Source of the DNA: a virus
IMG/VR virus record: IMGVR_UViG_3300030380_000932
Location: 1-29,970 of that record
Length of the DNA: 29,970 bases
Reading direction: 5' to 3' (one strand)
The position numbers were made by a program, and so were the translations under genes. The notes beneath the pieces are model-generated. The model searched no databases. It had not been told where the DNA came from and saw nothing but the letters and a program-made list of their open reading frames with translations. The number at the start of each line of letters is the position of its first letter. The first letter of the stretch is position 1. This document shows, in pieces, positions 7,511 through 29,970 of this stretch.

Positions 7511-9820
7511 TTATTTTGCCGTATTTTTAAATCCCATTTTGTCCCAATATGCTTTGGTATACCCTTCAAATGGCATATCTCTTGGAGCGACTGGAACTAA
7601 TTTATCATTAATAGGTGCTCTAAAACCCATTGATTTTGCTTTTGTTGAGGTTATCTCATCTCTTTTTGTGATACCTTTCCTATTAATGTTTCTGTCCTCC
7701 TTTATAACGTAGGTTTTTCTGAACCATTTATGGAAACATCTAGCACCTCCCTTATATAGCCAAATAGAATAAGTATTAGATCCACCCTTACCGAAACCTT
7801 TATTAACTGGCTTATCTGTTAAGGCAATAATATCTTCTTTACGGTAGATTTTTTTAGCGTTAACCATCGCATTACAGAAATCTCTAGTATCTTTTTGCTT
7901 TTTTAAAGGAGCATATTGATATCTAACTAGAAATCTTAATGAAGGATCTTGCTTAGATGTACCATCTTGATCTGATTTTCTGTTTTTATAAGCATCTCCA
8001 GTCCTTACTAGGTTAACAACTTTCTGCAAAGCTGATACTTTAGGCTTATTTAATTCAGTTATTTTAAGATCCAACTCATCATCTGTTTCATAGTCTACTT
8101 CTGAGACATCTATTAAATCATAATTATCCAATAATTCCTCTTCATCCTCTCCTAATTCTATGAATTTTTCCAGATCATTTTCACTTAATTCTTGTTTGCT
8201 ATTCTTAATAGGAACGCAGTTAGGAACTTTCTTACCATTCTTGGTTTTCATTCCTATCATTTCATATCCTGCCTCACAAGGTTTTTTAAGGTTTATTACC
8301 GTATTATGATCTTTGCATGGCATATGCCAAATCTTCCCATCTTCTTCATGTTCGTGCGAACCCTTGCATCCTAATACTTCAGCTACTTCTTCAGCTTCTT
8401 CTTTAGTTTCATAAGCAATTTGACCATCTATTTTTTTAAAATTTTCAATATAAGAATATCTATCAACACCCCTTATTAAATCTTCGTGCGACTCACAAGG
8501 CATATAATACTCTTTGCCATCTTCTTCATGAATATGTGACCCTTTGCATCCAATTTTTTTGGCTATCTCTTCAGCTTCTTCTTTAGTTTCATATACGGTT
8601 TGACCATCTATTTGTCTTGCCATCTTTACCCCAGTCTCCTCCTCAATTTCCTCATCATCTTGGAGCGTTGGATCTACCTCTGTAAACTCTAAAGGTTGCA
8701 ACGTAATGAAATATAAGTTTAATGATATGTCATTATATGATAATAGAGTATCAAAGCAATCAATTAACAACTCTTGAAAAGGTCGGATAACAGTATTATC
8801 CATTAATAAACTTGCAGTCTTTATCTCATCTGCATTATTACCTAGTCCGCTATTGTCTTTGATTCCTAATAACATGGGTGATACTACCCGATGCGCCACC
8901 ATTATCTTCTTTGCGCTTTCATCTGAAAGAAATTGATACTGGTTATGCGCATCTGATAATTGAACTGGCGTTATCTCAGCTTGTGCATCTTTATTGTCAT
9001 TGAATGCAAGTATAAATTTCCCTGCGTTTGATGTCCCTGAGAATTTAGAGGCAATTCTTTGCTCTATTAATTCCCTTTCTTGCTGATTTGGAGTTCCATT
9101 ATTAAAATTTATAAGCATTGACGGACTTAATCCGTTCATAATATTATTTAAATGATAGTTGCTTATCTCTTCTTCTAGTTCTGCGTACTGTAATCCACCC
9201 TGATAATCTACTGGAGAGTAGTAATAAAACCCTGCTCTATAAGGTTTGATATAATATATCTCAATAGCCTCCTTTGACATCCCATAAGCAGGGATTCTCA
9301 ATGGCTTATCGCTTGGCTTTATCTTTGCCCAATCCTTAAAATAGTAATATGCAGGGATCTCTCCTTCTTCATTTGCTTTTTCTGCTCTTAAAGTCTCAAT
9401 TGGAAAATGCTCAATCTTAGCAATTGTATTTCTATCCTTAGAGTATACCACTTGCAACGCCGCTTGACCCATTAATTTTAAGTCATAGCATACTTTACGC
9501 ACACAATCCTTGTGAAATAAAGAAATCATTTGCGCATATTGATCAGGCTTCTTGTCTGCATCAGTAGCATTTAATCCTTTACCGTAAATCGCTTGACTTA
9601 TTCCATTGATAGCCGCATTATTAGTCGGACTTCCGTTATATCGATCTATTAAAAATTGAAAATAGTCATTATCCTCTCCATAAGCGACCCAATCTTTATT
9701 GGCAACCTCTTTTACCTCTGGACTTGTATAAGTACTTAGGTTGATAACGCCTACATCAGTATTGTTTTTAACTTGTTTTACTGTTGGATTTGTTAGTGTT
9801 TTTTTCTTGTTCCTTTTCAT
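7511..9820 (-). CDS. Portal protein with duplicated His/Cys motif and C-terminal extra domain
   Basis: The product has 769 residues. The N-terminal half (about 1-390) reads as a portal: WVAYGEDNDYFQFLIDRY, NGISQAIYGKGL, and the SDESAKKIMVAHRVVSPMLL region. Two copies of an approximately 45-residue unit follow (about 400-435 and 460-500: YETKEEAEE, GCKGSH.HEEDGK, MPC..H), then a GYEMIGMKTKNGKKVPNC segment. After that comes a domain of about 170 residues (FLVRYQYAPLKK, RDFCNAMVNAKKIYRKEDI, TYSIWLYKGGARCFHKWFR) that I know as a frequent C-terminal addition in Bacteroidota phage structural proteins. Portals form the DNA gate of the capsid; the extensions probably face the capsid interior. The gene overlaps the 142-residue gene by four bases. 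Unusually, it comes after the capsid gene. Confidence 0.75.
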   Translation of the reverse strand: MKRNKKKTLTNPTVKQVKNNTDVGVINLSTYTSPEVKEVANKDWVAYGEDNDYFQFLIDRYNGSPTNNAAINGISQAIYGKGLNATDADKKPDQYAQMISLFHKDCVRKVCYDLKLMGQAALQVVYSKDRNTIAKIEHFPIETLRAEKANEEGEIPAYYYFKDWAKIKPSDKPLRIPAYGMSKEAIEIYYIKPYRAGFYYYSPVDYQGGLQYAELEEEISNYHLNNIMNGLSPSMLINFNNGTPNQQERELIEQRIASKFSGTSNAGKFILAFNDNKDAQAEITPVQLSDAHNQYQFLSDESAKKIMVAHRVVSPMLLGIKDNSGLGNNADEIKTASLLMDNTVIRPFQELLIDCFDTLLSYNDISLNLYFITLQPLEFTEVDPTLQDDEEIEEETGVKMARQIDGQTVYETKEEAEEIAKKIGCKGSHIHEEDGKEYYMPCESHEDLIRGVDRYSYIENFKKIDGQIAYETKEEAEEVAEVLGCKGSHEHEEDGKIWHMPCKDHNTVINLKKPCEAGYEMIGMKTKNGKKVPNCVPIKNSKQELSENDLEKFIELGEDEEELLDNYDLIDVSEVDYETDDELDLKITELNKPKVSALQKVVNLVRTGDAYKNRKSDQDGTSKQDPSLRFLVRYQYAPLKKQKDTRDFCNAMVNAKKIYRKEDIIALTDKPVNKGFGKGGSNTYSIWLYKGGARCFHKWFRKTYVIKEDRNINRKGITKRDEITSTKAKSMGFRAPINDKLVPVAPRDMPFEGYTKAYWDKMGFKNTAK
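8322..8618 (-). repeat. Internal duplication in the portal gene
   Basis: Bases about 8322-8438 and 8502-8618 are diverged copies of one unit; for example, TCAGCTTCTTCTTTAGTTTC and GACCATCTATTT occur in both at the same spacing. The coded unit contains GCKGSHxHEEDGK and MPCxxH, a cysteine/histidine pattern that could bind a metal. Confidence 0.8.
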
Positions 9821-10245
9821 ATTACAATATAGTCATTGTCATAGGAATTATTATAGACGTATTGACCTTGATTAAGTTCATAATACTCGTTTTTCGTTTG
9901 ATCAACGGTTTGATCTGTGCAGAAAATACGATCTGAGAATATCTCCGATACAAATGTATTGGTTTCATTCCATTTCGTTGTCTCTGCTTCCCATAGATTA
10001 AAGTTTGTATTCCAAATATTAAAATCAATGTATAATCTAAGATCATAAAAATGACCCTCAACTAAAACTGGATTAAAAGTATTGTTAAATACTAGATAAT
10101 TTCCTGATGTTGTTGCAGTTGTTACTTCATAAACAGTAGTGACATTTGTACTATCATCACGAATGTCCATGCTAAAAGTGCTAACGTATTCTCTAGGAAT
10201 TACAGAGAGCGTTTGAGCAGTTGAGGAGGTTTTTAAAATTATCAT
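9817..10245 (-). CDS. Structural protein, 142 residues
   Basis: The product is rich in beta-forming residues, Tyr and Asn. The N-terminal half (VSTFSMDIRDDSTN, YEVTTATTSGNYLVFNN) looks like a small beta-sandwich, and the end reads NQGQYVYNNSYDNDYIVI. Proteins of this pattern lie next to tube or portal genes in Bacteroidota phages, but I know of no proven role. It is the first gene after a terminator and carries a TACGTTATACTATT element two bases further from its ATG than the other three copies. It overlaps the portal gene by four bases (ATGA), so it probably leads the portal-connector-fibre transcript. Confidence 0.6.
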   Translation of the reverse strand: MIILKTSSTAQTLSVIPREYVSTFSMDIRDDSTNVTTVYEVTTATTSGNYLVFNNTFNPVLVEGHFYDLRLYIDFNIWNTNFNLWEAETTKWNETNTFVSEIFSDRIFCTDQTVDQTKNEYYELNQGQYVYNNSYDNDYIVI

Positions 10246-10262
10246 CTAATAGTATAACGTAA
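10246..10262 (-). promoter_or_regulatory. Late-type element TACGTTATACTATT, copy 1
   Basis: The 14-base motif (complement of 10248-10261) stands before the ATG at 10245 with two extra bases (AG) between them. A strong terminator ends about 30 bases upstream, so transcription must restart here if this gene is to be well expressed. The contained TATACT resembles a -10 element; there is no TTTG/TAnnTTTG pattern. Confidence 0.65.
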
Positions 10263-10291
10263 AATTGGATTTATTTTTGAAAAGTTAAATC

Positions 10292-10316
10292 AAAAAAAAA
10301 GCAGTCCGAAGACTGC
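10292..10316 (-). terminator. Intrinsic terminator after the tail tube gene
   Basis: On the minus strand GCAGTC-TTCG-GACTGC forms a 6-base-pair stem closed by a very stable UUCG tetraloop, followed by nine T. It lies 23 bases after the stop of the tail tube gene. Confidence 0.92.
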
Positions 10317-10338
10317 CTCTTAACTAACCAAACTAAAA

Positions 10339-10866
10339 TCAACCCGTTGGGGCAATCTGAGTTCCTTGAGTAGCCGTTGTAATCAGGCTTGATGTAATAA
10401 ATGGAGCGGCAGTTTCTTCCATTGCCTCCATTGTTAAAGTAAAGCCTGAGAGGTCGCCTGCGGCTGTGCCAGTCACGATTGATCCTCCAGTGCACTCAGC
10501 ACCGTTCTCAAGACCCACTAGGAACATATTCCCATAGTAGTCCTCCACCGCGATTTGTGGTCTTGCCGCCGCAATCAATTGAATTTCTTGTTGCGTTGCA
10601 TTGTCCAAAAATGTTAAAGTTAAGTTTAATGTCTGAGTATAAAAGGTAGTACCAGTATCCCTAGAACTTGTAATTGTTGTCTCTAGTGATGATGCACCTT
10701 TTACATCAAATTTATAAACCGTAGGCGTTCCTGATATAGCCGTAATTTCTCCGTCTGTATAAGTGGGATCGCCTAAGTCTCCATAATCCATAAAGTAGGC
10801 GGCTTTAATTCCGCCAAAAGCTGATTTACAAGGTAGCTTTCGTCCTTTCGTTAATAAACACGCCAT
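10339..10866 (-). CDS. Major tail tube-like protein
   Basis: The 175-residue protein starts MACLLTKGRKLPCKSAFGG and contains FYTQTLNLTLTFLDN, QEIQLIAAARPQIAVED, and LSGFTLTMEAMEETAAPF. This pattern is common in a tube-like family that follows the capsid gene in Bacteroidota phages. Size, beta-rich composition and high predicted output (terminators on both sides) fit a tail tube subunit. The identification is by pattern and position, not by a catalytic motif. It lies downstream of the capsid gene's terminator with no promoter I can see in between, so it probably depends on readthrough. Confidence 0.62.
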   Translation of the reverse strand: MACLLTKGRKLPCKSAFGGIKAAYFMDYGDLGDPTYTDGEITAISGTPTVYKFDVKGASSLETTITSSRDTGTTFYTQTLNLTLTFLDNATQQEIQLIAAARPQIAVEDYYGNMFLVGLENGAECTGGSIVTGTAAGDLSGFTLTMEAMEETAAPFITSSLITTATQGTQIAPTG

Positions 10867-10880
10867 AATATTTTTTGTTT

Positions 10881-10920
10881 AAAAAAAAAGGCATAAAGGG
10901 ACTACACCCCATATGCCCTT
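10881..10920 (-). terminator. Intrinsic terminator after the major capsid gene
   Basis: GGCATA (complement of 10912-10917) pairs with TATGCC (complement of 10890-10895). Inner GGGG/GTCCC pairing narrows the loop, and nine T follow on the minus strand. It begins just after the capsid stop and ends about 15 bases before the tail tube ATG. It probably caps most capsid transcripts while some read on into the tube gene. Confidence 0.85.
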
Positions 10921-10933
10921 TTTTAGTTATAAT

Positions 10934-11866
10934 TTAAGAATATAAAACTATGTCAGAGCCTATACCGTACTGCACTCCTGCAGTAAATCTCATTATTACT
11001 CTAACATTTTGAGATCCATCTAGGTCACCCATATCTAAAACCTTAACTTCATTCATATCGTTAAGTAAACCAGTTCCGAAATATAGGTTAGACTTCTGAG
11101 CCGCTACCGCATAATTATCAGGCAATCCTTGACCGACAAAGATCTTAACTCCGTCAAAACTTAGATCACCATTATTCCACCATTGAGTACCTTGATTATT
11201 TACACCATTTGCACCCAAGCCAGACGCACCAAATCCACCTAATGAGCGAACGTATGCCCTTGCAATATTCTGAGAGATATACAAAAACATATCATCTTTA
11301 GAATAAAGAGCGGAGGGGATTGCATCAACGATCTTACCGAGTTCAGTAATTACATTAGCTGAATCAACTCCACCACCTACTGCCGCAACATCAATCACAT
11401 CAGCGTCAGCAGTCATAAGAGTTGTCAATCCGTCAAACTCTCCTGCTTGTGCGCCTCCTAAATTTCCTTGCCAAATATTGTTCTCAGTTGCCGCCGCTAC
11501 TTCTTTAGCAACATGAGCAATCAAGAATTCAGCGAAGGTCGGGGGCAATTGATCGAAAGCAGAGTATCCCATGCTTTGAGCGCCCCAATTTGCCACAAAC
11601 GGAGTCTTACACAATTCGACATTTACCTGAAATTCTTCAGGCTGAATAATTCTTTCAGTTAAAGTAACATTTCCTGCATTTGTAAAATCACAAGTTGAGT
11701 CTGCGATAATTCCGCTAGTTGCTACTTTCTGGACAACTTCTTTATATTTTATATTCGGCATAATTTCAATTCCTCCGTTGTCAAGAGTTGAGCCGCTTGT
11801 AAGTGCCGCCGCAATATATTTCCCTGCGAATTCACCTGCATATGTACTTGTTATAGTTAAAGCCAT
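10934..11866 (-). CDS. Major capsid protein, HK97-like fold expected
   Basis: The product has 310 residues. It contains ATSGIIADSTCDFTNAG, LTERIIQPEEFQVNVELCK, FLIAHVAKEVAAATENNIWQG and the late VRVIMRFTAGVQYGIGSD, a pattern I know from major capsid proteins of Bacteroidota phages. It directly follows the protease and scaffold-like genes and ends in a strong terminator, as expected for the most abundant virion protein. Its sequence has no long delta-domain; the gene upstream may supply the scaffold instead. The start at 11866 has an A-rich leader (CTAAAAAA), typical of this genome in place of a Shine-Dalgarno sequence. Confidence 0.8.
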   Translation of the reverse strand: MALTITSTYAGEFAGKYIAAALTSGSTLDNGGIEIMPNIKYKEVVQKVATSGIIADSTCDFTNAGNVTLTERIIQPEEFQVNVELCKTPFVANWGAQSMGYSAFDQLPPTFAEFLIAHVAKEVAAATENNIWQGNLGGAQAGEFDGLTTLMTADADVIDVAAVGGGVDSANVITELGKIVDAIPSALYSKDDMFLYISQNIARAYVRSLGGFGASGLGANGVNNQGTQWWNNGDLSFDGVKIFVGQGLPDNYAVAAQKSNLYFGTGLLNDMNEVKVLDMGDLDGSQNVRVIMRFTAGVQYGIGSDIVLYS

Positions 11867-11870
11867 TTTT

Positions 11871-12560
11871 TTAGTTATTTACAATTTTTGATAATACAGA
11901 ATCCATTATGGATTTTTGTCTTTGTTTTTGAAAAGTTACTTTTTCATTTTTATTTATTACTGATTCGGGACTGTGCTTTATAGCTTGAGCCGCAGGTTTT
12001 GAAAGTTCTTCCTTGAGATCTTCATTCATTTCCTCTTTTTTCTTTCCGTAACCCATTTCTTCAACCTCTTCAGCAGAGACTTTATCACGCTTTAGGTCTG
12101 CAATTGCCGCTTCTAGATTTGCTATTCGCTCCTCCATAGCTTTCCAATCATCTACCTTAATGATCATATTCCCTTCTTTATCTTCTTTGATCTCATCAGC
12201 CTCAACCTTTTCATCTTCCTTGTCTTTCATATCTTTCAAGTTTTCAGTAGGTTTTTCCTCAGTAGGTTTTTCCTCAGATAGATCAGAAGTGATTTCTTCC
12301 TTTGCAGGGACTCCATCACTAACATCTCTAACATCAGCAATAATACCCTCCTCTTCAACGACTAAAAGTCTTGAATCAGCAAGTATATATTCGCCGACTG
12401 GCATAGCTACTTTTTCATCATCAGTCAGGATAAATACTTCTTTCCCTTTTTCAAATGCTTCCGCCTCTATGTCAGTTCCGTTTTCTAGCTTCATCGTTTC
12501 CAATTTTACTTGAATATCTAGAAGTGTTCTTATTTGATTTAACATATCATTTGCTTTCAT
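11871..12560 (-). CDS. Scaffold-like capsid assembly protein
   Basis: From the ATG at 12560 the product is 229 residues. The N-terminal 100 residues look folded (MLNQIRTLLDIQVKLETMK; VAMPVGEYILADSRLLVVEE). Then comes a very charged, repetitive Glu/Lys middle (EEKPTEEKPTE) and a coiled-coil region (WKAMEERIANLEAAIADLKRD), with a basic end (FQKQRQKSIMDSVLSKIVNN). The position directly before the capsid gene and the composition suit a scaffold. The frame is open 31 codons further upstream, but the TACGTTATACTATT element ends exactly at 12560, which fixes the start. Confidence 0.65.
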   Translation of the reverse strand: MKANDMLNQIRTLLDIQVKLETMKLENGTDIEAEAFEKGKEVFILTDDEKVAMPVGEYILADSRLLVVEEEGIIADVRDVSDGVPAKEEITSDLSEEKPTEEKPTENLKDMKDKEDEKVEADEIKEDKEGNMIIKVDDWKAMEERIANLEAAIADLKRDKVSAEEVEEMGYGKKKEEMNEDLKEELSKPAAQAIKHSPESVINKNEKVTFQKQRQKSIMDSVLSKIVNN

Positions 12561-12574
12561 AATAGTATAACGTA
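12561..12574 (-). promoter_or_regulatory. Late-type element TACGTTATACTATT, copy 2
   Basis: The motif abuts the ATG at 12560 of the scaffold-like gene and would drive scaffold and capsid. The sequence just upstream is AT-rich (CTTTTAAATTTT). Confidence 0.7.
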
Positions 12575-12595
12575 AAAATTTAAAAGTTTTGTCTT

Positions 12596-12751
12596 TTAAC
12601 TCTGTCTGTAGATGTTCCCAATGCCTTGATTCATCGTTCCACCCTTGCAACATTTTCTTGAATAAGTATTCTTATCCCTACATAGACACGCTCTTTGACT
12701 GCCCTTTGGACTTGTTCTACTAGGAATAAAGATTTTATTTTTATCTGTCAT
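12596..12751 (-). CDS. Small Cys-rich protein (CLCRDK...YSRKCCKGG type), 51 residues
   Basis: The ATG at 12751 shares a base with the protease stop (TAATG). The product contains RACLCRDKNTYSRKCCKGG and MNQGIGNIYRQS. I know this pattern from flavobacterial phages, always as a tiny protein; its four cysteines (CxC...CC) could bind zinc or an iron-sulphur cluster. It lies between protease and scaffold genes. No function is known to me. Confidence 0.7.
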   Translation of the reverse strand: MTDKNKIFIPSRTSPKGSQRACLCRDKNTYSRKCCKGGTMNQGIGNIYRQS

Positions 12752-13686
12752 TATTTTTTCTCTTTTTCAGCTTGATCCATTTTCTTTTTTGCCCAACCTA
12801 AAGCAGATTTTCCACCCCAAAGCAAGTAAGATATAGTCCCACAAGCCTTTGTATCTGATGGATCATAAAACTCCTCTGCTCGGCTTAAATAAGAGTACAT
12901 CCTTTTAATTGTGTTCATTGAAATAGGTTTACCTTGCGCTAATTGTTGCGCTCTAATCTTACCCACTTCAGTTGCACATTTATTGTTAATTTTTTTATTT
13001 AACTCAATGCCTCTTTTTGCGTTGTTACGGACAGACTTAGGGTAATCTCTAAAAGACTCCATTTCAATTTCTTGAGTTTCTCTGTTTATTATCCCTTTGA
13101 TCATTGACAACATCTCTTTTGCCTCTTCATTCTCTATATCTTCAAGAGATATTTTAGGCTTTTGAATTGTCATATTTACTTTATCTGCAAAATATCCTTC
13201 TATTGAAAAGCCTTTGACTTTACCTTTCTTCACATATTCTTGCCATACTTGCTCATTGTTGACTTTCATCGTTCCCATCCATGTCCCGACTGGAACATTC
13301 ATTCCATACTTTCGGCTTTTGTCATGAATATCATCTTCAACTAACCAAGATTCAACAAGAGTCAAACCGTTTAATTGATGTTGATGCTCTAATGTGGAAT
13401 TATTCTGATTGCCATTTCGCAAATACATTTGACTTGCTTTTTCAATGGTATTCTTTGAAAAATAAATGTAGTATTCACCCTCATCAGACATTCGATAAAT
13501 AGGCTTATTTGGGATCAGCAATGCACCCATCAATATCCGCTTGTCTTTGGATACCTCTGCAAGTTTTATCTCTTCCTCTTTTAATGCTACAAAGTCACTT
13601 TCGATTGCAGGACTTTCTACGATGCTGATTGCTTCTATTCCAGAAAATTCTTGATTTTCATCTAGTACTAATTCTACTATCTTCAT
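12751..13686 (-). CDS. XkdF-like prohead protease with C-terminal extra domain
   Basis: The product has 311 residues. The N-terminal part carries the XkdF/S78_2 (PF14550) pattern: IESPAIESDFVAL, ILMGALLIPNKPIYR, STLEHQHQLNGLTLVES, then GTWMGTMKVNNEQVWQ and VKGFSIEGYF. The His and Ser in the EHQHQ and GFSIEG segments are candidate catalytic residues. After residue about 220 comes a second domain (YPKSVRNNAKRGIELN, CATEVGKIRAQQLAQGKPIS, RMYSYLSRAEEFY, CGTISYLLWGGKSALGWA) found fused to various phage head proteins. The protease would trim scaffold and capsid during head maturation. The element TACGTTATACTATT abuts its ATG. Confidence 0.78.
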   Translation of the reverse strand: MKIVELVLDENQEFSGIEAISIVESPAIESDFVALKEEEIKLAEVSKDKRILMGALLIPNKPIYRMSDEGEYYIYFSKNTIEKASQMYLRNGNQNNSTLEHQHQLNGLTLVESWLVEDDIHDKSRKYGMNVPVGTWMGTMKVNNEQVWQEYVKKGKVKGFSIEGYFADKVNMTIQKPKISLEDIENEEAKEMLSMIKGIINRETQEIEMESFRDYPKSVRNNAKRGIELNKKINNKCATEVGKIRAQQLAQGKPISMNTIKRMYSYLSRAEEFYDPSDTKACGTISYLLWGGKSALGWAKKKMDQAEKEKK

Positions 13687-13700
13687 AATAGTATAACGTA
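13687..13700 (-). promoter_or_regulatory. Late-type element TACGTTATACTATT, copy 3
   Basis: The motif abuts the ATG at 13686 of the protease gene, in the 41-base gap after the tape measure stop. No terminator hairpin is seen in that gap. Confidence 0.7.
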
Positions 13701-13727
13701 CGAATTGATGAATTTTGTTTTTTTAAA

Positions 13728-15527
13728 TTACAATGTAGCTGATTCGACTATATTTCTGTCAAGACTTTGAGCCGTAGTAACATCATCGGAGACAACAAAT
13801 GCTCTAACTGGTTGACCATTTTGACTTCCAATAGCATCTGCTAATTGATTCGTTCCAGTAGTTCCTACCACATTAAAACTAGGCGGCAATGATGGAACTG
13901 CAGGAGTTGAATACGATGCTCCAGATCCACCTCTTCCACTTCCTCCTCCTTCACCTCCTCCAATACCGTTAACAGTCGGTAGTTTTGTCCCTCTGATTTC
14001 TTGTACTGTTCTAAATCCAGTTGCTAAAGCAGATGCCGCCGCCGCCGCCCCTAAAACTGGCCCGACGAAAGGAATCCCTGCTAATGAATTAAATGCGGCT
14101 ATAGAGGATTGCAAGGTTGTAATGGTTGTGGATGCTATTGCCGCCGCTTTTCCTGCTTTAGATTCCTTGCCTAAAACATTTGCTAAGTTATTTAATGTCC
14201 CTACGGCAATATTTACTTTCTCCTGAGATGCCATTTTGTCTAATTCAACTAATTTTCTACTGGCTTCTGCTTGGAAATCTAATAACTCCTCATTTGCGTC
14301 AATATATGCTTGAGTCCCTTCAGTATATAGATTCCTTTTTTTTGTTAATCTTTCAGTTTCTTCTTTAATTTCTGCTTTTGTGGCTTCTTGTAATGCAGTA
14401 ATTCTAGACAGTTCTCCCCTTTCTTGTTCTGCCATAAAATTTCTTTGCTCTTGCCGTCTTAAAGTTTTGCCATCTTCTATGCTTTGCTCTAGTTCTTCCT
14501 GCTCTTTTTGTAGACCCATCTCATTAATCAACTGCTCAGACATAAATCCTGCAATCGTTGCCTCAACGGCATCAACCTCATTCTTTGCAGTCTGCAAACG
14601 AATAGCATTTTCTTGACTACCATTTAAATCAAATGCCGCTTGTGCTTGTCTTTCTACTAATTTAGCATTCTCAAGCATTGCATCTTTTTGGAGTAGTAAT
14701 ATTGTTCTTAGTTTTTCGTTTGCTTCAGTTCTTTCGGCAATAGTTAATCTTTCATCATCTCGGATCTGACGTTGTTGCTCTGCTTGACGGTCATACTGCT
14801 CTAGTAATCCCACATTTTTAACCTCCGCAAGTTCTGCTTCCTTTGCTAGTTGAACACTTGCATCAGCCGCTTTCAAAGTGTTCTCAGCGTAACTCTTCGC
14901 CGCAGTCGCAGTCTTTTCTACCAACTCAACAGTCTTATCAAATGAATCATCAACGCCAGTCAGAACGTCTGTAAATTCCTTTCCTGCGTTACTTGCCGCT
15001 TCTATTGCTCCGTCAAAATCCCCTGCAAATACTTTTTTGATTGCTTCTCCTAAAAATCCAATAACTTCTAGAGCAGAATTAAAACGCTCAATCATATTAT
15101 TTTTGATTGCCTTTCCTAAATCTGCAACGGCTTTTTGTGGATCGTTAAATATCTTTTTAAAAGACTCTGTAATTGGCTCAATATTATTTTTAACTAGATT
15201 AAACAAATCATTAAAAACAATCTCTAAAGACTTAAATGCCGTAGCACTAGCATCAACAACGACTTGATTAGTCATAAATAGTTCTTGCATACCTTGAAGA
15301 ACCTTTAAGAATAGTCCAATTCCTGCCGCTTTAATAGCCAGACCCATCCCCTTAATACCTTTTGCAGATTGCTCACTTGTTTTTGATAGTGCATCAATAG
15401 CCTTTTTAGTATCTTTATTACTATCAACAACTTCCTTGCTTAGATTCTCAACTTGTTTTTTGAGGTCAGCAATCTCTTTACTGGCTTTTGTGGTGTTCGC
15501 TACTATGTCAATTTCTGCAACTTCCAT
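13728..15527 (-). CDS. Tail tape measure protein
   Basis: The product has 599 residues. It begins with an N-terminal coiled coil (KEIADLKKQVENLSKEVVD) and a hydrophobic segment near 65-80, followed by long helical coiled coils through about 450. Next comes an Ala/Gly-rich hydrophobic stretch (about 459-505, including LAGIPFVGPVLGAAAAASAL) and a Gly-rich linker. The C-terminal segment ends VRAFVVSDDVTTAQSLDRNI, which I know from tape measures of Bacteroidota phages. At about 1.5 angstrom per residue the length predicts a tail near 90 nm. It lies downstream of the tail-tip genes rather than just after the chaperone, which is unusual. Confidence 0.85.
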   Translation of the reverse strand: MEVAEIDIVANTTKASKEIADLKKQVENLSKEVVDSNKDTKKAIDALSKTSEQSAKGIKGMGLAIKAAGIGLFLKVLQGMQELFMTNQVVVDASATAFKSLEIVFNDLFNLVKNNIEPITESFKKIFNDPQKAVADLGKAIKNNMIERFNSALEVIGFLGEAIKKVFAGDFDGAIEAASNAGKEFTDVLTGVDDSFDKTVELVEKTATAAKSYAENTLKAADASVQLAKEAELAEVKNVGLLEQYDRQAEQQRQIRDDERLTIAERTEANEKLRTILLLQKDAMLENAKLVERQAQAAFDLNGSQENAIRLQTAKNEVDAVEATIAGFMSEQLINEMGLQKEQEELEQSIEDGKTLRRQEQRNFMAEQERGELSRITALQEATKAEIKEETERLTKKRNLYTEGTQAYIDANEELLDFQAEASRKLVELDKMASQEKVNIAVGTLNNLANVLGKESKAGKAAAIASTTITTLQSSIAAFNSLAGIPFVGPVLGAAAAASALATGFRTVQEIRGTKLPTVNGIGGGEGGGSGRGGSGASYSTPAVPSLPPSFNVVGTTGTNQLADAIGSQNGQPVRAFVVSDDVTTAQSLDRNIVESATL

Positions 15528-15655
15528 TTTGTTTCTCTTTTAATTTGTCGAAATGTATCTCTAAAACTTTTAGGAAACTTGTATTTCCCTTGTGCGATCC
15601 TGATATTTTCAGTCTCTCCGTCTGCTAGTTTTAATAATTCTATTATTTCCTTCAT
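15503..15655 (-). CDS. Small basic protein before the tape measure, 50 residues
   Basis: The ATG at 15655 overlaps the preceding stop (ATGA), and the frame ends 25 bases inside the tape measure gene. The product begins MKEIIELLKLADGETENIR and continues AQGKYKFPKSFRDTFRQI with a basic tail. Tight coupling on both sides argues that it is translated. No family is recognised. Confidence 0.5.
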   Translation of the reverse strand: MKEIIELLKLADGETENIRIAQGKYKFPKSFRDTFRQIKRETKWKLQKLT

Positions 15656-17706
15656 ACCACATTCAATAATTCTAAATCTGATTCTCCAGTTTGGAGGTTT
15701 GTAGTGATTGAGTTGATGATATAAGTCTCATCTCGCATGATTATCTTATCATTTAATTCTAAAGCAATCACAATCCTTAATGGTAAAAATGCTTTAACCT
15801 TTGTGAGCCTTCTTTGAGCGTTAAATACCTTTGAAACGTAGTCTGTATATTCCTTATTAAATAAAGATCCATCTGCAAACCCTGCTGATGTTAATGCATA
15901 CTCATTTATCTCTGCTCCGAAATTTAAATTATCAGCGTTTGTGGATGCATTTAAGGCAACGCTATTGCTAGGAATGTTATAAGTATCTACCTCAACATGA
16001 CTTGATGATGATTTTAAAAATGATATTGAATCAATTCCTGCTCCTGACTGAGTAATAGGGTAAAATAATAACGGTTTACCAAAATAAGACTGCTGATTTT
16101 CATTAACAAAAAATCCATATTGTATTGTAGTCGTTCCTCCGACAGATTGATCATATAATCTTTCAAATTGTGCGTGTTCAAAAGGAGGCTTAACTGTATA
16201 TATTTCATTTGGAGCATCATATTTTTCATCATCTAAAGTGAATTTTAGGCTTCCCCAACCTACGTTATTTAGTTGTTCATATTGTTTTGCGAGAAATGTC
16301 CCTAATCCTTCGTATTCAAAATTCACTTGTTTGTAAGGTAATGCTACATTAACTCTGCTATTTGTTACCTCTAAATAGTTCGTAATATCATAAGTAGTTC
16401 CTGCGGCATAAAAATCATCTATTGTCTGAACTTGTATATTTCCATTTGGTAATTCAAAAACAGTTAAATTAAAAAGATTAAAAAGTCCATTTAAAAAATC
16501 CATCACCTTTATCTCAGGGATCTGTTGCGTAATAATAAACTCAATAGCCGTACTTGTATTGAAATCCGTATCAGTAGTAAACGCATCTGTCCATGATGCA
16601 CCAACAAATCCCTCTAGATCCCAGTCAATATTTCCTACCGTAAAGGTTATTTGAGTTGTTACGTTTTGAACTATGGTTACAGTATAAGATCCTGATGCAA
16701 AAATTTGTCCATAATCAGAAAGACCAAATGTTCTTGTCCCACTAGCAAATGATGACTCAAAAAAAGACTGTCCATTTCTGTAAATAATAACCTGATAAGC
16801 CACCGCACTTGATGAAGGAGTAAGAGTTAAATCTGCTTTTACAGTTGCAGGAGCGTAAAGTCTGAGCGTTGTTTCAGATTCTTGTTTTGCATACAATCCG
16901 CTTGTATCAACTTGAAAAGTATTTACCTCTGAAAAGTATTGATCTATTTGAGTTGCAGGTTGAACGCTTCCGCTTTTACGATGCAGCCACATATGTAAAT
17001 GGAAATACCTATCATTAGACGTATTAAAAAAAGAACTACTATCAAATGTTATTCCGTATTTTGTTTCTATTGCACTAATAATGGTTGAGATCCTGATTGC
17101 ATATTTTAAATCATTCCACGCAACGCCATGTAAATTTGCACCTCCTCCAGTATGATAATATAAGTTCCCTGACCCTGCAACTGCCGTACTGCTATTATAA
17201 GATAATTGTTTTGTGTGGGTAATTAAAGGGCATAGAATAGCCGCCCCATTTGCTTCGGGTAATTTTAATCTTGTTTCTACTTCATCAGGACTATATTCTA
17301 AATTATGAGTTGACAAACTACTTAATCCTGAGAGCAAATCTTCACCTATTAAATCTTTTAAATTAACAGTATCTCCGAAAAATGTAATGCGGTAAGCATA
17401 GGCTTTTTCTTTTCGCATATCAACTCCCTCAAGTCTAATAAATCCAGTCTTAAAAGGAATGCTATTTAATTCTATACTTCCTGATACTTTGTTTAAAGCA
17501 TCAAATCCATCTACAATATCAAAGTTGTAATAATGCTTAAAAAGCAAATTATTCTTTTTACTGGCAGGAACGGTAAATGTCTTGCTGAAATTTGTAAATA
17601 CTTTAGCAAGATCTTTTACGTTTTGAATTGTCTGAGTTACCGATACGGTCTCATCCCCAAATAGATCAATACGATCTGACCCTAAATATAATTGCAGTTT
17701 TTGCAT
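15652..17706 (-). CDS. Tail-tip / baseplate structural protein, 684 residues
   Basis: The N-terminal 100 residues (MQKLQLYLGSDRIDLF, FTNFSKTFTVPASKKNN, FKHYYNFDI) match a large tail protein I know from Bacteroidota phages and prophages. The rest is beta-rich with a carbohydrate-binding-like middle and ends KIIMRDETYIINSITTNLQ, GESDLELLNV. Size and place between the 331-residue protein and the tape measure suggest a tail hub or adhesin carrier, in the role of Tal/Dit proteins elsewhere. No catalytic motif is visible. It begins one base into the previous stop. Confidence 0.6.
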   Translation of the reverse strand: MQKLQLYLGSDRIDLFGDETVSVTQTIQNVKDLAKVFTNFSKTFTVPASKKNNLLFKHYYNFDIVDGFDALNKVSGSIELNSIPFKTGFIRLEGVDMRKEKAYAYRITFFGDTVNLKDLIGEDLLSGLSSLSTHNLEYSPDEVETRLKLPEANGAAILCPLITHTKQLSYNSSTAVAGSGNLYYHTGGGANLHGVAWNDLKYAIRISTIISAIETKYGITFDSSSFFNTSNDRYFHLHMWLHRKSGSVQPATQIDQYFSEVNTFQVDTSGLYAKQESETTLRLYAPATVKADLTLTPSSSAVAYQVIIYRNGQSFFESSFASGTRTFGLSDYGQIFASGSYTVTIVQNVTTQITFTVGNIDWDLEGFVGASWTDAFTTDTDFNTSTAIEFIITQQIPEIKVMDFLNGLFNLFNLTVFELPNGNIQVQTIDDFYAAGTTYDITNYLEVTNSRVNVALPYKQVNFEYEGLGTFLAKQYEQLNNVGWGSLKFTLDDEKYDAPNEIYTVKPPFEHAQFERLYDQSVGGTTTIQYGFFVNENQQSYFGKPLLFYPITQSGAGIDSISFLKSSSSHVEVDTYNIPSNSVALNASTNADNLNFGAEINEYALTSAGFADGSLFNKEYTDYVSKVFNAQRRLTKVKAFLPLRIVIALELNDKIIMRDETYIINSITTNLQTGESDLELLNVV

Positions 17707-18701
17707 TATCTGACATTATTTATTTTATCATAAGCCTCCTCAAATTCAATTGTGTAATCAATCAGCCTATCATTTAATTTAGTCTTTTTCTGGAAGTTAC
17801 TCGTAATAACATTTAAAGGTAAATACTGAGTTGTCCCTACCGCATTAAGACTTTGAATCCATATCTGCTCACTTTCTAATAATTGCTCAAATACTGCATT
17901 GTATCCTTCGGGATAATAACCTGAGTTTAATGTCATCCTCTCTCTTGCTTCTTTATTATATACAACTTTAGAAGGCTTAGTTGTATCGTATGTTGTACTA
18001 GATCCGCTTGATGTTAAATTAACTCCTTGATAAGTTTCTTTTGTTGTATCTGTTGTCAATGTCTTTTTAAGAAGAAACCAAAGATCTTGAAATTGTCCGT
18101 ATTTATTTATAAAGGTTATCCTTTGAGGATCATATTTTGAGCAAGGCGTTCTATTAATTGTGCAAGTGACTCCGACTCCAATAGTGACAGAGGTATCTGT
18201 ACCGCTATAAGATTGATAAGCAACTGTACCGCTTAAAATATATGGCAAAAAACCGCTTTTATTCTCAGGCACAAATATCTCCCAATCATTGTTGACTCCT
18301 AATTTTGGAGCGATCAACCATGATGCGGATGAACTTAACGAGAAAGGGACAGAAGGATTTGCTCCCTCACTAAAATATCCATAGGCATCAAAGCCAGTAT
18401 TATTATTATCAGTTATTGTTTGCAGTACAGATCCACTTGCATTTGCCGCATCATAGAATTTCATTGTTAAATCTATATCTATTTCTGTATCTCCTCCAGT
18501 TGGCGTTCCATCATAATCTATTGTAAGGTAATCCCTACATAATTCTGATATTTCAAATACACTTGCCGATCCTGCCGTTGCTGATTTTACAAGAGTATAC
18601 CTCAATACATTTTCAACCGATATCTCTAACTGTACTGATACTGAACTTGCAGGAGCAGTTCTAGTAAAAAAATAAGGTGATCTTAATGCTATCCTTGCCA
18701 T
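17706..18701 (-). CDS. Tail structural protein, 331 residues
   Basis: This is a beta-rich protein starting MARIALRSPYFFTRTAPASS, with VFEISELCRDYLTIDYDG early, CSKYDPQRITFINKYGQFQD in the middle, and RLIDYTIEFEEAYDKINNVR at the end. The same pattern occurs next to the 684-residue type in flavobacterial phages, so the two probably form one tail-tip complex. It shares a base with the following gene. The function is inferred only from context. Confidence 0.55.
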   Translation of the reverse strand: MARIALRSPYFFTRTAPASSVSVQLEISVENVLRYTLVKSATAGSASVFEISELCRDYLTIDYDGTPTGGDTEIDIDLTMKFYDAANASGSVLQTITDNNNTGFDAYGYFSEGANPSVPFSLSSSASWLIAPKLGVNNDWEIFVPENKSGFLPYILSGTVAYQSYSGTDTSVTIGVGVTCTINRTPCSKYDPQRITFINKYGQFQDLWFLLKKTLTTDTTKETYQGVNLTSSGSSTTYDTTKPSKVVYNKEARERMTLNSGYYPEGYNAVFEQLLESEQIWIQSLNAVGTTQYLPLNVITSNFQKKTKLNDRLIDYTIEFEEAYDKINNVR

Positions 18702-18702
18702 A

Positions 18703-19266
18703 TTATCTCTTTTTTAAAAAATTTAGTACATCTTCAGAAAACCCAATTGCTAATTCTTCGGGTAGCCTTTTAAATGCGGCTCTGAATGGTCTAGTAAACC
18801 AAAGACTCGGAGTAATACCTTGAGCAAATATTCTCTTTTGCAACATAAATCCGATTGCCTTATAATTTCCTTTTTTAAATTGACCAGTTTTTTTATCTCT
18901 GAATCTAATTTTATTAAATTTTGCCCAATTCATTATAGGTTTTAAAGGAGGCATTTTAGATTTATAGGAATATCTTCCAAATATTGTGTTGGTAGCCTTG
19001 CCTTTTTGCTTTCCTTTTTTAACTAAACTAGGATTTGATCCATATACTCCTGCATCTTGAAACATTCCATAAACATCCATAAAGAAACTTAGGGTGATTT
19101 TCCCATTTGATTCTTTTGGAGAAGCATATTTCAAAGAATTATAAAGAGACTTAGTATAATTGTTAGGCTTCTTTGTCTTTTTAGTAAGATTCGTTCTGCC
19201 TTGCTGAACCACATATTTGCCAAATGCGGAGTAGGCTTGTATAGTTTCCTCGTATCTCATTAGCAA
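18703..19266 (-). CDS. Neck/tail connector-like protein (HK97 gp10 type)
   Basis: The 187-residue basic protein starts with a helical part (YEETIQAYSAFGKYVVQQG), has KTKKPNNYTKSLYNSLKY and a MFQDAGVYGSNPS segment, and ends PSLWFTRPFRAAFKRLPEEL, then a helix. This order (helix, basic tail-like stretch, FxRPA-like helix) is that of HK97 gp10-like tail-component proteins, which join head and tail. It overlaps the gene before it by seven bases. The assignment is by pattern and context. Confidence 0.55.
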   Translation of the reverse strand: MLMRYEETIQAYSAFGKYVVQQGRTNLTKKTKKPNNYTKSLYNSLKYASPKESNGKITLSFFMDVYGMFQDAGVYGSNPSLVKKGKQKGKATNTIFGRYSYKSKMPPLKPIMNWAKFNKIRFRDKKTGQFKKGNYKAIGFMLQKRIFAQGITPSLWFTRPFRAAFKRLPEELAIGFSEDVLNFLKKR

Positions 19267-19730
19267 ATATTTATATCATTATAGATTTCTACGTTTAAAA
19301 GAGATTCCCATCCTGCTAACTCGTTTTCAAACCTATCATAAAATGGCTCTATCGAAACGCTACCTTGTAGCTGATATCCGTTCTGATGTAAATCACCACC
19401 TCTTAAAACTTGTACTAATTTATTTATGACAGATAGCTGAGTGTTCAAAATGTCTTGCTCATTATTATTGCCTATAAAAATATCTGTGGTTTCAGATTTG
19501 GATCTGTCAACAATATCCATATTTAGTATGCTTATACTAAAAATTAGTACGCCATCTTCTTGAGATACATTATTGACTATCATATGAGCCAATGGAAAAA
19601 TGTCTTGTTTTTGTAGGTTAACATCTGTCAAATTACCGATAGTAACAGTCTTGCAATTTATATCCGAAAGCAATTGAGTTTTAATTGTTTCCGTTAACTG
19701 GTAAAAGCCTCTGATTCCTTGATTGCTCAT
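19260..19730 (-). CDS. Tail terminator/completion-like protein
   Basis: The 156-residue protein starts with a helix (FYQLTETIKTQLLSD), has beta strands around FPLAHMIVNNVSQEDGVL and ISILNMDIVDRSKS, then a long helix (QLSVINKLVQVLRGG), then strands including VSIEPFYDRFENELAGWE. This alpha-beta pattern, and the placing next to a gp10-like gene, matches tail terminator proteins of siphoviruses. Its ATG overlaps the stop of the frameshift extension (ATGA). Moderate certainty. Confidence 0.55.
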   Translation of the reverse strand: MSNQGIRGFYQLTETIKTQLLSDINCKTVTIGNLTDVNLQKQDIFPLAHMIVNNVSQEDGVLIFSISILNMDIVDRSKSETTDIFIGNNNEQDILNTQLSVINKLVQVLRGGDLHQNGYQLQGSVSIEPFYDRFENELAGWESLLNVEIYNDINIC

Positions 19731-19972
19731 TTAATTTTTTGTTTCATTAATTTCGATTCTAACTCATTTTTTTCTTTTGTAAAGGCTAACATCATTAGAC
19801 ATTCATGCATCTTCATCTTAGTGATATGGTTAATTCGTTCAATGTTTCCTTGAGCGAGTCCATAGAGCGAATTGTACCACCCCCATTTCTGTCCAAATGC
19901 GGAAGTCGCACTTGTTGTATCCCTATCTCCTCCGCTAAAGAGTTCAGAGTAGCTTTCAGTAAGTCCTTTTTT
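19727..19972 (-). CDS. -1 frame extension of the tail assembly chaperone (GT-like, KWGWY domain)
   Basis: In the -1 frame relative to the 216-residue protein, an open stretch runs from the slippery site to a TGA at 19727-19729. It encodes about 79 residues without its own start near the beginning, including FGQKWGWYNSLYGLAQGNIE, INHITKMKMHECLMML and a Glu/Lys-rich helix. The KWGWY...LYxLAxGD(N)I...IT...HxCLxxLxF pattern is one I associate with frameshifted tail chaperone extensions. A slip at A AAA AAG (19972 to 19966) would give a 245-residue fusion (166 + 79). An internal ATG at 19823 could alternatively give a 29-residue peptide, but that would lose the conserved part. The stop overlaps the tail terminator ATG. 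Confidence 0.78.
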   Translation of the reverse strand, partial: KKGLTESYSELFSGGDRDTTSATSAFGQKWGWYNSLYGLAQGNIERINHITKMKMHECLMMLAFTKEKNELESKLMKQKIK

Positions 19973-20463
19973 AAATTGAATAAAAAAAAAATTGACCCTA
20001 ATACGGCATCCATTGGCATCTGTAAGGCACGATCTCTTTGATCCATGTCATATTCTACTAGATCATATCTTCCTGCCTTCTTATGCGATATAGGACGGTA
20101 CAACACATTCATAGCATAATGTATGTTTGTCCAATCAGATAAGTAAGTATCCACATCTATGTATTCACCAAAAGTCATTTCATCAAGATCAGGAATAAAT
20201 CCAAATTGTTGTCCATTTAATTTAAAAAATCTTACAAGTTTTGTTTCATTTACAAATAAACTACTAATCTTTTTTGCTATTTCAGTAACAGAATGAGCCG
20301 CAATACTCTTTATTTTCTCCTCTGGTACATGGCAAAAAATCTCTATTGCCTTATGTTCTAAAAAATGCTCATTATCATTTAATTCTTGAGCCTTTAAAAA
20401 ACTCTGATATTGCTCCAACTTGATTTCTGACAGATCTGTTGGGACGTTTAGTTTAGCTTTCAT
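19813..20463 (-). CDS. Tail assembly chaperone, G-like (zero-frame product)
   Basis: The 216-residue product starts MKAKLNVPTDLSEIKLEQYQ, has a helical body (HFLEHKAIEIFCHVPEEKI, FFKLNGQQFGFIPDLDEMT, FGEYIDVDTYLSDW), and a region before residue 166 with two slippery runs. Such proteins bind the tape measure during tail assembly, and a longer -1 product binds tube subunits. The start at 20463 is fixed by the TACGTTATACTATT element directly in front; the frame extends 24 codons further, but that would begin inside a terminator. It is the first gene of the structural region. About 50 zero-frame codons after the slip site overlap the extension. Confidence 0.7.
   Translation of the reverse strand: MKAKLNVPTDLSEIKLEQYQSFLKAQELNDNEHFLEHKAIEIFCHVPEEKIKSIAAHSVTEIAKKISSLFVNETKLVRFFKLNGQQFGFIPDLDEMTFGEYIDVDTYLSDWTNIHYAMNVLYRPISHKKAGRYDLVEYDMDQRDRALQMPMDAVLGSIFFLFNLKKDLLKATLNSLAEEIGIQQVRLPHLDRNGGGTIRSMDSLKETLNELTISLR
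19966..19987 (-). promoter_or_regulatory. Programmed -1 frameshift site (A AAA AAG; second candidate T TTT TTA)
   Basis: Read in the zero frame, TTA AAA AAG at 19974-19966 contains the heptamer A AAA AAG, the same as in E. coli dnaX. Nine bases upstream, TTT TTT TTA contains T TTT TTA (19987-19981), also a classical slippery heptamer and also in the right register. The -1 frame is open from both. No strong downstream hairpin is obvious by eye. Confidence 0.75.
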
Positions 20464-20477
20464 AATAGTATAACGTA
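20464..20477 (-). promoter_or_regulatory. Late-type element TACGTTATACTATT, copy 4
   Basis: The motif abuts the ATG at 20463 of the tail chaperone gene. Only 34 bases separate this ATG from the end of a strong terminator, so a promoter for the whole structural region must lie here. This is the best evidence that the element marks transcription starts. Confidence 0.75.
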
Positions 20478-20497
20478 ATTTTAGGATAATTTTAAAT

Positions 20498-20524
20498 AAA
20501 AAAAGACGGTCATTTCTGACCGCC
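20498..20524 (-). terminator. Intrinsic terminator between early and structural regions
   Basis: On the minus strand GGCGGTCA-GAAA-TGACCGTC forms an 8-base-pair stem (one G-T pair) with a GAAA tetraloop, followed by seven T. It lies about 20 bases after the stop at 20547 and closes the early transcript. Confidence 0.92.
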
Positions 20525-20546
20525 TCTATAATCAACTACAAAAAAA

Positions 20547-24172: not shown

Positions 24173-25342
24173 TTATGAATATTTTTTACCGTTTATTTTA
24201 ACCGTCAAGGTATCATCTAGCTTTCTCATTCGATCTATTATCACTTGACAATACTTTGGGTCTAATTCTATTCCGTAGCATTTACGATTAAGTTGATGTG
24301 ATGCTACCATTGTAGAACCAGAGCCAAGAAATAAATCTATCAATAAGTTTGGTTTATGGTTTTTAATAGCAGTCTCGCATAAGAATAAAGGTTTTTGTGT
24401 GGGATGAACATAATTTTGGTCTCGCCCTCCTTCCCATAAAGTTGTTTGTGTTCTATCTTTTAATCTTTCTTTTTTAACTCCTTTCCATCCGTATAAACAA
24501 GGCTCGTGTTGACTCCTATAATCTGCATAACCCATTGAAGCTTGTTTTTTTGACCAAATTATTGTAGCCCTTAACCCCCAGCCACTTTCAATAAATGCTT
24601 TCTCAAACAACGGTCTTAAACCAACTTTGCTATCAGCGTGCCACACAAAAATAGTTGCACCTTCTTTTGAATTTATATACGCACAAGATAATGCACCAAA
24701 AACTAACTTTTCAGTATCTTGCAATGATAAATTGTCATTTTTTATAGTGTTGGAAGTGTTTTCACCTCTGCCCGAATAATTTACTCCATAAGGCGGATCA
24801 GTAAACACCATGTCAGCCTTCTCTCCATTCATTAACTTAGCCACTTGATCTGAATCCGTTGAATCTCCACATAACAAACGATGATCACCGATCTCAATTA
24901 AATCACCAAACACAACATCAACCTTTAAGTCATCGGGTTCTTCATAGTCATCCTCTTCTGCCTCTAATTCATTGATATTAAAATCAGGGATCTCTAACCC
25001 CCAATCCTCTAATTTCTCCGCATCCCATTCATTTGCCAACGCATTCCAGTCCCACTCTCCAAAGCCTACATTGTCTTTAATGGTAAACTCTTTTTTTTTA
25101 TCTTCTGACCATCCCTCCACGACATGAATCCATATCTTCTTAATTCCTGCATCCTTACAAGCCTTCAGTCTCATGTTACCTCCTAAAACCATCATAGATT
25201 CATCAACTACTATTGGTCTTATTTTTAACATCTCAGGGAAAGTCTTAACGCTTTCCACAAGCCTTTTAAACTTATCATCCTTTATTATTCTAGGATTGTC
25301 AGGATTACTTCTAACTAGGTTTATATTAACTTCTTTTGTCAT
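24173..25342 (-). CDS. ParB-like domain fused to DNA methyltransferase (beta class)
   Basis: The product has 389 residues. Residues 1-110 resemble the ParB/sulfiredoxin fold (NPRIIKDDKFKRLVESVK; PIVVDESMMVLGGNMRLKA). Residues about 150-385 form a methyltransferase with DPPYGVNYSGRG (motif IV, about 181) before LIDLFLGSGSTMVA (motif I, about 337); this order defines the beta class, which methylates adenine N6 or cytosine N4. No restriction partner is next to it, so protection of phage DNA or regulation is likelier than a restriction system. It overlaps the preceding gene by four bases. Confidence 0.88.
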   Translation of the reverse strand: MTKEVNINLVRSNPDNPRIIKDDKFKRLVESVKTFPEMLKIRPIVVDESMMVLGGNMRLKACKDAGIKKIWIHVVEGWSEDKKKEFTIKDNVGFGEWDWNALANEWDAEKLEDWGLEIPDFNINELEAEEDDYEEPDDLKVDVVFGDLIEIGDHRLLCGDSTDSDQVAKLMNGEKADMVFTDPPYGVNYSGRGENTSNTIKNDNLSLQDTEKLVFGALSCAYINSKEGATIFVWHADSKVGLRPLFEKAFIESGWGLRATIIWSKKQASMGYADYRSQHEPCLYGWKGVKKERLKDRTQTTLWEGGRDQNYVHPTQKPLFLCETAIKNHKPNLLIDLFLGSGSTMVASHQLNRKCYGIELDPKYCQVIIDRMRKLDDTLTVKINGKKYS

Positions 25343-27437: not shown

Positions 27438-27550
27438 TCCTCTGGAATTACTTTACAATTCTCCTGACAAGCCTCGCATCTCTCAGAATGTTCAATCACT
27501 CTTGCTCCGCAACAATTGCTCACTCCCTCCTCGTAATATATCTCTATCAT
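27434..27550 (-). CDS. Tiny zinc-ribbon-like protein, 38 residues
   Basis: The ATG at 27550 opens MIEIYYEEGVSNCCGARVIE, followed by CEACQENC. The CCG...CxxC(xxxC) pattern matches a tiny zinc-ribbon protein I know from many flavobacterial phages. The stop overlaps the exonuclease start (ATGA). It may be a nucleic acid- or protein-binding accessory factor. Confidence 0.7.
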   Translation of the reverse strand: MIEIYYEEGVSNCCGARVIEHSERCEACQENCKVIPEE

Positions 27551-27665
27551 TTCGTGTGTTTTTAAATCGTAGAAAATCCATCCAATAACCTAGCCATTTT
27601 GGGTCATCTTTTCTAACTCTCAAATGTCGGGTTTCAATATTTGGATGTAAGAACTCATATTCCAT
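27492..27665 (-). CDS. Possible small protein overlapping the zinc-ribbon gene, 57 residues
   Basis: The ATG at 27665 opens MEYEFLHPNIETRHLRVRKD, then PKWLGYWMDFLRFKNTRN. The first 38 codons lie in an otherwise empty gap and look protein-like; the last 20 overlap the zinc-ribbon gene in another frame. A TATATTTG (-7-like) box stands only four bases before the ATG, without a -33 partner. It may be real with an overlapping end, or chance. Confidence 0.35.
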   Translation of the reverse strand: MEYEFLHPNIETRHLRVRKDDPKWLGYWMDFLRFKNTRNDRDILRGGSEQLLRSKSD

Positions 27666-27927: not shown

Positions 27928-28070
27928 TTTCTAATTAGTTTGATTTTATTCCATTTTTCTCTTCTCTTATCGCACTTGCATTTTTTGCCAGTTTTTTTGT
28001 GATACAAATCAACAAGATACTTTATCCCAGTAAATCTTGTGATGTGAAATACTAAATCTCCGAGTCTCAT
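27924..28070 (-). CDS. Small CxCDKRxE protein, 48 residues
   Basis: The product starts MRLGDLVFHITRFTGIKYLV and has KKCKCDKRREKWNKIKLIRK at the end. The two-part pattern (GLGDxVxxxTxxTGIKxxV, then CxCDxRKExxN) is shared by tiny proteins I know from Bacteroidota phages. Both ends overlap neighbours by four bases (ATGA). Its place directly after the sigma-like gene may mean joint use, but that is inference. Confidence 0.7.
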   Translation of the reverse strand: MRLGDLVFHITRFTGIKYLVDLYHKKTGKKCKCDKRREKWNKIKLIRK

Positions 28071-28564
28071 AATAATCTTTTTATTTTCTTTTTTACTTTT
28101 TTAAAGGTCTTATAAAGCGAATAATAACTTATCCCAGTTTTTCTTGATAAAGTGCTTATGCTTTCTCCTTCAGTTATTATTTCAAATATTTTCCTATCAT
28201 ACCAATACATGGTTTTGAGTTCACCCTCTATTTTTAAGTAGGTCTCAGTATTTGCTTGATCACCTTCAATTTTTGACAAGTAATCTAAATCAACAATGAT
28301 CGTATTTTTTTCTTTCCTCTTCATATTGACAAAAATGCTTCTGAGGATCTTAAAAATATAGTAGTAATTTATTGAATCATCCTTATACTTAATGTTTGAC
28401 CCCTCATTTAATTTCTCAAATACTTTCAAATACATATCTTGCAAGATATCATCAACGTCTTTTGGCTCACATCCAAAATGATAAAGGATGTTAATCCATT
28501 TTTTGCGTTTATCCACAAGCATTTGCATCTCCTTTTCATGCATTATATCCTTCTTGCGTTTCAA
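28067..28564 (-). CDS. Sigma-70-like factor (ECF size), phage encoded
   Basis: The product has 165 residues. Residues about 30-60 (GCEPKDVDDILQDMYLKVFE) match sigma region 2 (DxxDxxQDxYLKxxE), followed by FKILRSIFVNMKRKEK. The last 45 residues (RKIFEIITEGESISTLSRKT, GISYYSLYKTFKKVKKKIKR) match the region 4 helix-turn-helix. It would direct host RNA polymerase to phage promoters; the repeated TACGTTATACTATT element is the obvious candidate target. It overlaps the ATPase gene by 29 bases. Confidence 0.75.
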   Translation of the reverse strand: MKRKKDIMHEKEMQMLVDKRKKWINILYHFGCEPKDVDDILQDMYLKVFEKLNEGSNIKYKDDSINYYYIFKILRSIFVNMKRKEKNTIIVDLDYLSKIEGDQANTETYLKIEGELKTMYWYDRKIFEIITEGESISTLSRKTGISYYSLYKTFKKVKKKIKRLL

Positions 28565-29710: not shown

Positions 29711-29970
29711 TTACTTTTTGTTTATGTTGATTAATTTGATTAATTGAGCCTCCATCTCTTTAGTCATTGCAAATCTCATCTTTAATTTAGCAAGACTAGG
29801 CTTTGGATCGGTTGTAATATAATTTACCGTTTGCTCATACTCTTTAGTATTATTCTTCAAGAATGGTTTTTTACCCGATGCATGATTACCATCATCATCT
29901 TCAGCAGGAAGTCCTAATATTCCTTGAAGAATTGCCCTGCAAAAATAAGTGACGCAAGATAAGATCTTTT
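29711..29970 (-). CDS. erf: ERF-family annealing protein (C-terminal part, crosses the contig join)
   Basis: This is the continuation of the gene at 1-414. Bases 29816-29970 repeat the start of the contig; the unique 29711-29815 codes the last 34 residues (after VNYI: TTDPKPSLAKLKMRFAMTKE, then MEAQLIKLININKK) and the stop. The stop is one base before the SSB-like ATG. Confidence 0.85.
   Translation of the reverse strand, partial: KILSCVTYFCRAILQGILGLPAEDDDGNHASGKKPFLKNNTKEYEQTVNYITTDPKPSLAKLKMRFAMTKEMEAQLIKLININKK
29816..29970. repeat. Terminal repeat, right copy
   Basis: This copies bases 1-155 with differences at 29888 (a for g) and 29951 (g for a). It closes the genome into a circle. 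Confidence 0.93.

Follow-up and report, generated by a model that had tools for sequence, protein, structure and literature searches.

The window analyzed here, i.e., the whole 29,970-nucleotide stretch of viral DNA, carries four exact copies of the 14-base element TACGTTATACTATT, all of them on the minus strand (both strands of the window were scanned), which we regard as the candidate -10 regions of late promoters. The first copy (P1; 20464..20477) directly adjoins the ATG at 20463 of the first gene of its unit (19813..20463), with tail genes next; its -35-like box, TAAA, is located at 20491..20494, 15 nt before CGTT, and an intrinsic-terminator-like hairpin (20502..20527) lies directly upstream. 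The second and third copies (P2, 13687..13700; P3, 12561..12574) are likewise followed without a gap by the ATGs at 13686 and 12560, which start the gene of a head maturation protease (12751..13686) and that of a scaffold-like protein (11871..12560), the latter followed by a head protein gene (10934-11866); their -35-like boxes, both CAAA, are found at 13714..13717 and 12588..12591. At P4 (10248..10261), the bases AG separate the element from the ATG at 10245 of a gene for a small protein (9817..10245) ahead of the portal gene (7511-9820), the CAAA box (10276..10279) lies 16 nt before CGTT, and a second terminator-like hairpin (10296..10321) is located directly upstream. All of these features are on the minus strand, and the four boxes were recognized from the sequence and the family alignment. 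The recount bore out the positions of the copies given in the original prediction, their distances to the ATG (0, 0, 0, and 2 bases from P1 to P4), and the proximity of two of them to terminators (hairpin-like ends at 20527-20502 and 10321-10296). The gene labels fared less uniformly: the protease is backed by a family match (Peptidase_S78_2) and the scaffold only by a short stretch matching a protease family's scaffold-like tail, whereas the label "chaperone" for the first gene after P1 was not sustained, the protein belonging to phrog_32199. Family searches gave no known function for this protein or for the product of 9817-10245.

The chance expectation for exact copies of TACGTTATACTATT is ~9e-5 per strand, and in a simulation of 60 windows no 14-mer had more than two occurrences, simple repeats aside, compared with four in the real window. 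The claim that no other full copy exists also held, since the exact and near-match count revealed no sequence with one or two mismatches on either strand of the window, and the two matches with three mismatches correspond to the chance level. Bases 1-155 of the window match bases 29816-29970 with two differences; the window is probably a complete, circularly assembled genome of ~29.8 kb, though the record is classed as linear. Given these matching ends, the absence of further copies holds for essentially the whole genome.

From relatives of this marine flavobacterial phage, ~190 stretches were retrieved, the queries being the protease, the portal protein, and the sigma factor described below; all counts of loci refer to overlapping and related loci and not to independent events. 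The original prediction had named relatives lacking the motif before the same genes as the observation that would speak against it, but the motif is kept there, and in the nearest relatives the element stays before the same genes while the flanks diverge. Among all 7-mers, CGTTATA is the one most enriched in the 10 nt ahead of ORF ATGs; of its 506 occurrences, 255 lie there (base rate, 2.9%; ~20 of the 255 represent coding overlap), and five gene families account for 224 of 254 ATG-near sites. Among homologues whose start is in view, the element precedes 84/86 of the 9817-10245 family (P4), 36/40 of the "chaperone" family (P1), 56/73 of the scaffold family (P3), 51/67 of the protease family (P2), and 14/25 of a ParB-methyltransferase family, compared with none of the major head protein (0/84), portal (0/90), tape measure (0/25), and 10339-10866 (0/93) homologues. 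The element is accordingly almost confined to the first genes of units in this family comparison. It counts against a late-promoter reading that some relatives (groups L013-L024) have no element before the protease gene, the scaffold gene, or both, that five sigma gene starts also bear CGTTA, and that in the window the terminase genes remain uncovered. In the window, a protein with ParB-like and DNA methylase parts is encoded upstream of the terminase (24173-25342) and has no late promoter, unlike 14 of its 25 relatives. The gene at 10339-10866, present in 93 loci without a CGTTA element, is located directly behind a terminator-like run. A second group of matches, CGTTATAGAGATG before MKFRNKYY-like ORFs, was rejected as coding overlap without a fixed box.

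The proposed reader of P1 to P4 is the product of the minus-strand gene at 28067..28543, an ECF-type sigma factor with regions 2 and 4; the listed ORF reaches further, to a TTG at 28564. With 158 amino acids, the protein fits the ECF pattern of regions 2 and 4 only and a length of ~160-190 amino acids. By sequence, its match to sigma families is weak (phrog_1740; NCBIfam ECF models below the cut-off, e.g., TIGR02937 on residues 18-157 with 21.6 bits versus a cut-off of 42.9), searches of PDB sequences gave no real sigma match, and Sigma70_r2 exceeded its cut-off only in the protein of the isolate P12024S (gp33). An AlphaFold model of the protein has two domains (pLDDT, 84; pTM, 0.47), and ECF sigma factors lead the Foldseek results obtained with it (sigH, sigE, AlgU, and sigL); the pTM and the scores below cut-off count against the proposal. 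Sigma homologues are present in P12024S (gp33) and in every near-complete relative checked that bears the element; in Galbibacter, Flagellimonas, and Psychroflexus, homologues lie on contigs that also carry related proviruses, and a 28-kb relative (G010) has neither the element nor the sigma gene at the thresholds used. Among phage records, only P12024S/L contain a relative of the portal gene; a megablast of the region and a tblastn of the window sigma factor against these records found nothing. Related proviruses occur in the named strains of Galbibacter pacificus (L232) and Flagellimonas onchidii (L234), where the sigma homologue is located 13-15 kb from the portal gene.

The -10 regions differ between lineages but are alike within a genome, e.g., TTTATTGTAATA in L023, ACGTTTATATA in G003, which has a divergent sigma factor, CGTTAATA in P12024S, and TCTATTATATA in L235. 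The likeness within genomes amounts to 9.78, a value reached in 0/2000 shuffles of genes among 13 lineages (shuffled, 8.60; SD, 0.18). A divergent sigma factor is accompanied by a divergent motif, ACGTTTATA, and in P12024S, which also encodes the Sigma70_r2 protein, sites resembling AAAACAAA-N14-CGTTAATA precede six genes. Such likeness is consistent with a trans-acting reader that each phage brings along, without proving which protein this is. The contig L235 is labelled as a Pseudooceanicola MAG but has the appearance of a flavophage that was binned wrongly; its variant is found upstream of three homologous genes. In the G. pacificus provirus, CGGTTAATT is located at positions 164 and 9649, 15-22 nt before the ATGs of two homologous late genes, and a third copy is coding; as a lead only, this may represent control of the same type in which the leader is longer.

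These variants bear on the question of whether the sites are late promoters read by the host, either as variant sigmaA promoters or by a host ECF sigma factor, with the phage sigma factor serving another purpose. Several ECF-like sigma factors are present in flavobacterial host genomes, and TACGTTAT fits the TAnnTT of the host -7 box TAnnTTTG, but it lacks TTTG, as the original prediction had noticed, and does not comply with the -7 box of Bacteroidetes sigmaA. Moreover, the TA before CG is kept in only ~60-67% of the family, whose defining core is CGTTATA, while the co-occurrence of motif and phage sigma factor and the lineage-specific variants suit a phage-borne reader, and we consider reading by the host improbable. 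TAnnTTTG itself shows no overall coding-strand enrichment in the window (21 on the minus strand and 22 on the plus strand). A host-type TATATTTG at 27677-27670 precedes the start codon of 27492-27665 (ATG) by 4 bases and may mark a leaderless early gene with a host promoter.

Since the counts of loci partly mirror the relatedness of the genes, sites were thinned for the analyses of promoter anatomy. Of the 75 sites, 21 have no CAAA in range, and in 38 of the remaining 54 the box is located 15 bases upstream of CGTT, a spacing that is unchanged where the ATG sits 8-9 nt from the core. The information of the box amounts to 5.55 bits in an alignment on CGTT versus 3.78 bits in an alignment on the ATG; in the window, the TAAA at P1 and the spacing of 16 at P4 deviate and count against the promoter reading. 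The 14-mer of the original prediction is real, but the functional unit suggested by the relatives is the core CGTTATA with a -35-like CAAA ~15 bases upstream rather than the 14-mer alone. The distance from CGTTATA to the ATG is 5 in 48/75 sites, nearly always 6-9 otherwise, and almost never below 5. That the box keeps its distance to CGTT when the ATG moves favors a -35/-10 promoter over a translation-start signal, i.e., bases preceding the AUG that are selected to initiate translation in a phylum lacking Shine-Dalgarno sequences. The latter alternative, which the original prediction had left standing, would agree with the direct contact of element and ATG, with the enrichment of other A-rich 7-mers adjacent to ATGs, and with A at -3 and -6 of the window copies, which may suit flavobacterial start contexts. 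Such a signal should, however, keep a constant distance to the AUG and should also mark internal genes with strong translation, and neither is observed: the ATG distance varies from 5 to 9, and the head protein and portal families have no copy at all. Further points against it are the CG within the element and the restriction of exact repeats to unit starts (two behind terminators); we regard it as even less probable than reading by the host.

A start position can be predicted from sigmaL, whose promoters have C-14 and G-13 immediately preceding the -10 element, a hexamer, with 6-nt spacing to duplex DNA and +1 two bases before the duplex (PMC6372665); by our count, the spacing of optimal activity leaves 4 nt before +1 (PMC6372665). 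With this geometry, transcription would start on base 12 after the C, corresponding to the A of AUG at P1 to P3 and to a position 2 nt upstream at P4. Of 30 sites that remained after thinning and whose ATG is displaced, 27 have a purine 12 bases after the C and 25 a pyrimidine immediately preceding it; spacing and purine initiator together predict transcript starts 0-4 bases before the AUG. TATACT, pointed out within the element by the original prediction and first taken by us as the -10 box, was dropped in favor of CG plus TTATAC as the likely -10, because +1 would fall beyond the A of the ATG.

Single-element promoters of the T4 late type, served by a gp55-like factor and sliding-clamp activation, are highly improbable. 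In their favor, ATACTATT resembles T4 late promoters in their downstream portion, and the TATA-like core sits roughly one turn of the helix ahead of the start; against them stand the conserved -35-like CAAA box and the region-4-like domain of the sigma factor.

Overall, the relatives, the coupled upstream box, and the phage sigma gene strongly support the original idea of late promoters with near-leaderless mRNA, and P1 to P4 are likely to be late promoters of the phage-encoded ECF-type sigma factor acting on host RNA polymerase, with messages that are leaderless or nearly so. Host polymerase carrying the product of 28067-28543 would read the four sites, with region 4 binding the CAAA box and region 2 binding CGTTATAC/T, and would initiate ~12 bases downstream of the C in CGTT. 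As the sigma gene sits in the replication/early block, its product would activate the units for head and tail late, each of them restarted at its own promoter, in two cases directly behind a terminator. The mRNAs of Flavobacterium johnsoniae have a mean leader of 33 nt, and 87% of the leaders exceed 10 nt (PMC6847099); the probable leaderless or near-leaderless late mRNA would therefore be unusual for such hosts. The more far-reaching idea that one phage sigma factor runs the whole late regulon, leaderless or near-leaderless as a rule, that the late switch alters the mode of translation along with the promoter, and that the placement of the -10 region at the start codon is selected and no by-product of compact genomes is put forward tentatively and appears rather doubtful.

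A sigma-promoter pair covarying across lineages would permit late-gene prediction in uncultured phages, supply orthogonal promoters for Bacteroidetes, and probe the translation of leaderless mRNA in a phylum without Shine-Dalgarno sequences. The cultured relative P12024S and the flavobacterial strains with related proviruses make the system testable. In the open-licence literature, we found no description of this consensus and its placement or of late promoters for phages of abundant marine flavobacteria.

Among known systems, the Deinococcus-Thermus -10 motif shares the adjacency to ORFs (6-7 bp) that results in leaderless mRNA, but it reads TANNNT, serves about a third of the D. radiodurans genes, and is no phage late regulon (PMC12340547). 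The T4 late promoters (gp55) are also phage specified and TATA-like, but they lack a -35 element and are clamp activated (PMC2988020). The middle and late promoters of phiEco32 (gp36) share a phage sigma-like protein and a conserved motif before non-early genes; they differ in the single element tAATGTAtA and a sigma factor without region 4 (PMC8948821). The closest described arrangement is that of Salmonella phage 7-11, whose sigma factor SaPh711_gp47 has a region 4 and whose late promoters are bipartite (GTAAtg-16-aCTA); common to both phages are such a sigma factor, a bipartite consensus repeated before late genes, and host core RNA polymerase, whereas consensus and host phylum differ and the passages considered describe no start-codon placement (PMC8948821). 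Bipartite late promoters of phage sigma factors are hence already known, and it is the consensus and the start-codon placement for which no description was found. As in 7-11 and phiEco32, a sigma-family protein is encoded here and the motif lies upstream of late units only, and the family alignment shows the fixed spacing of the 7-11 type; further sigma-promoter pairs of such kind were predicted by the authors of the 7-11 study (PMC8948821).
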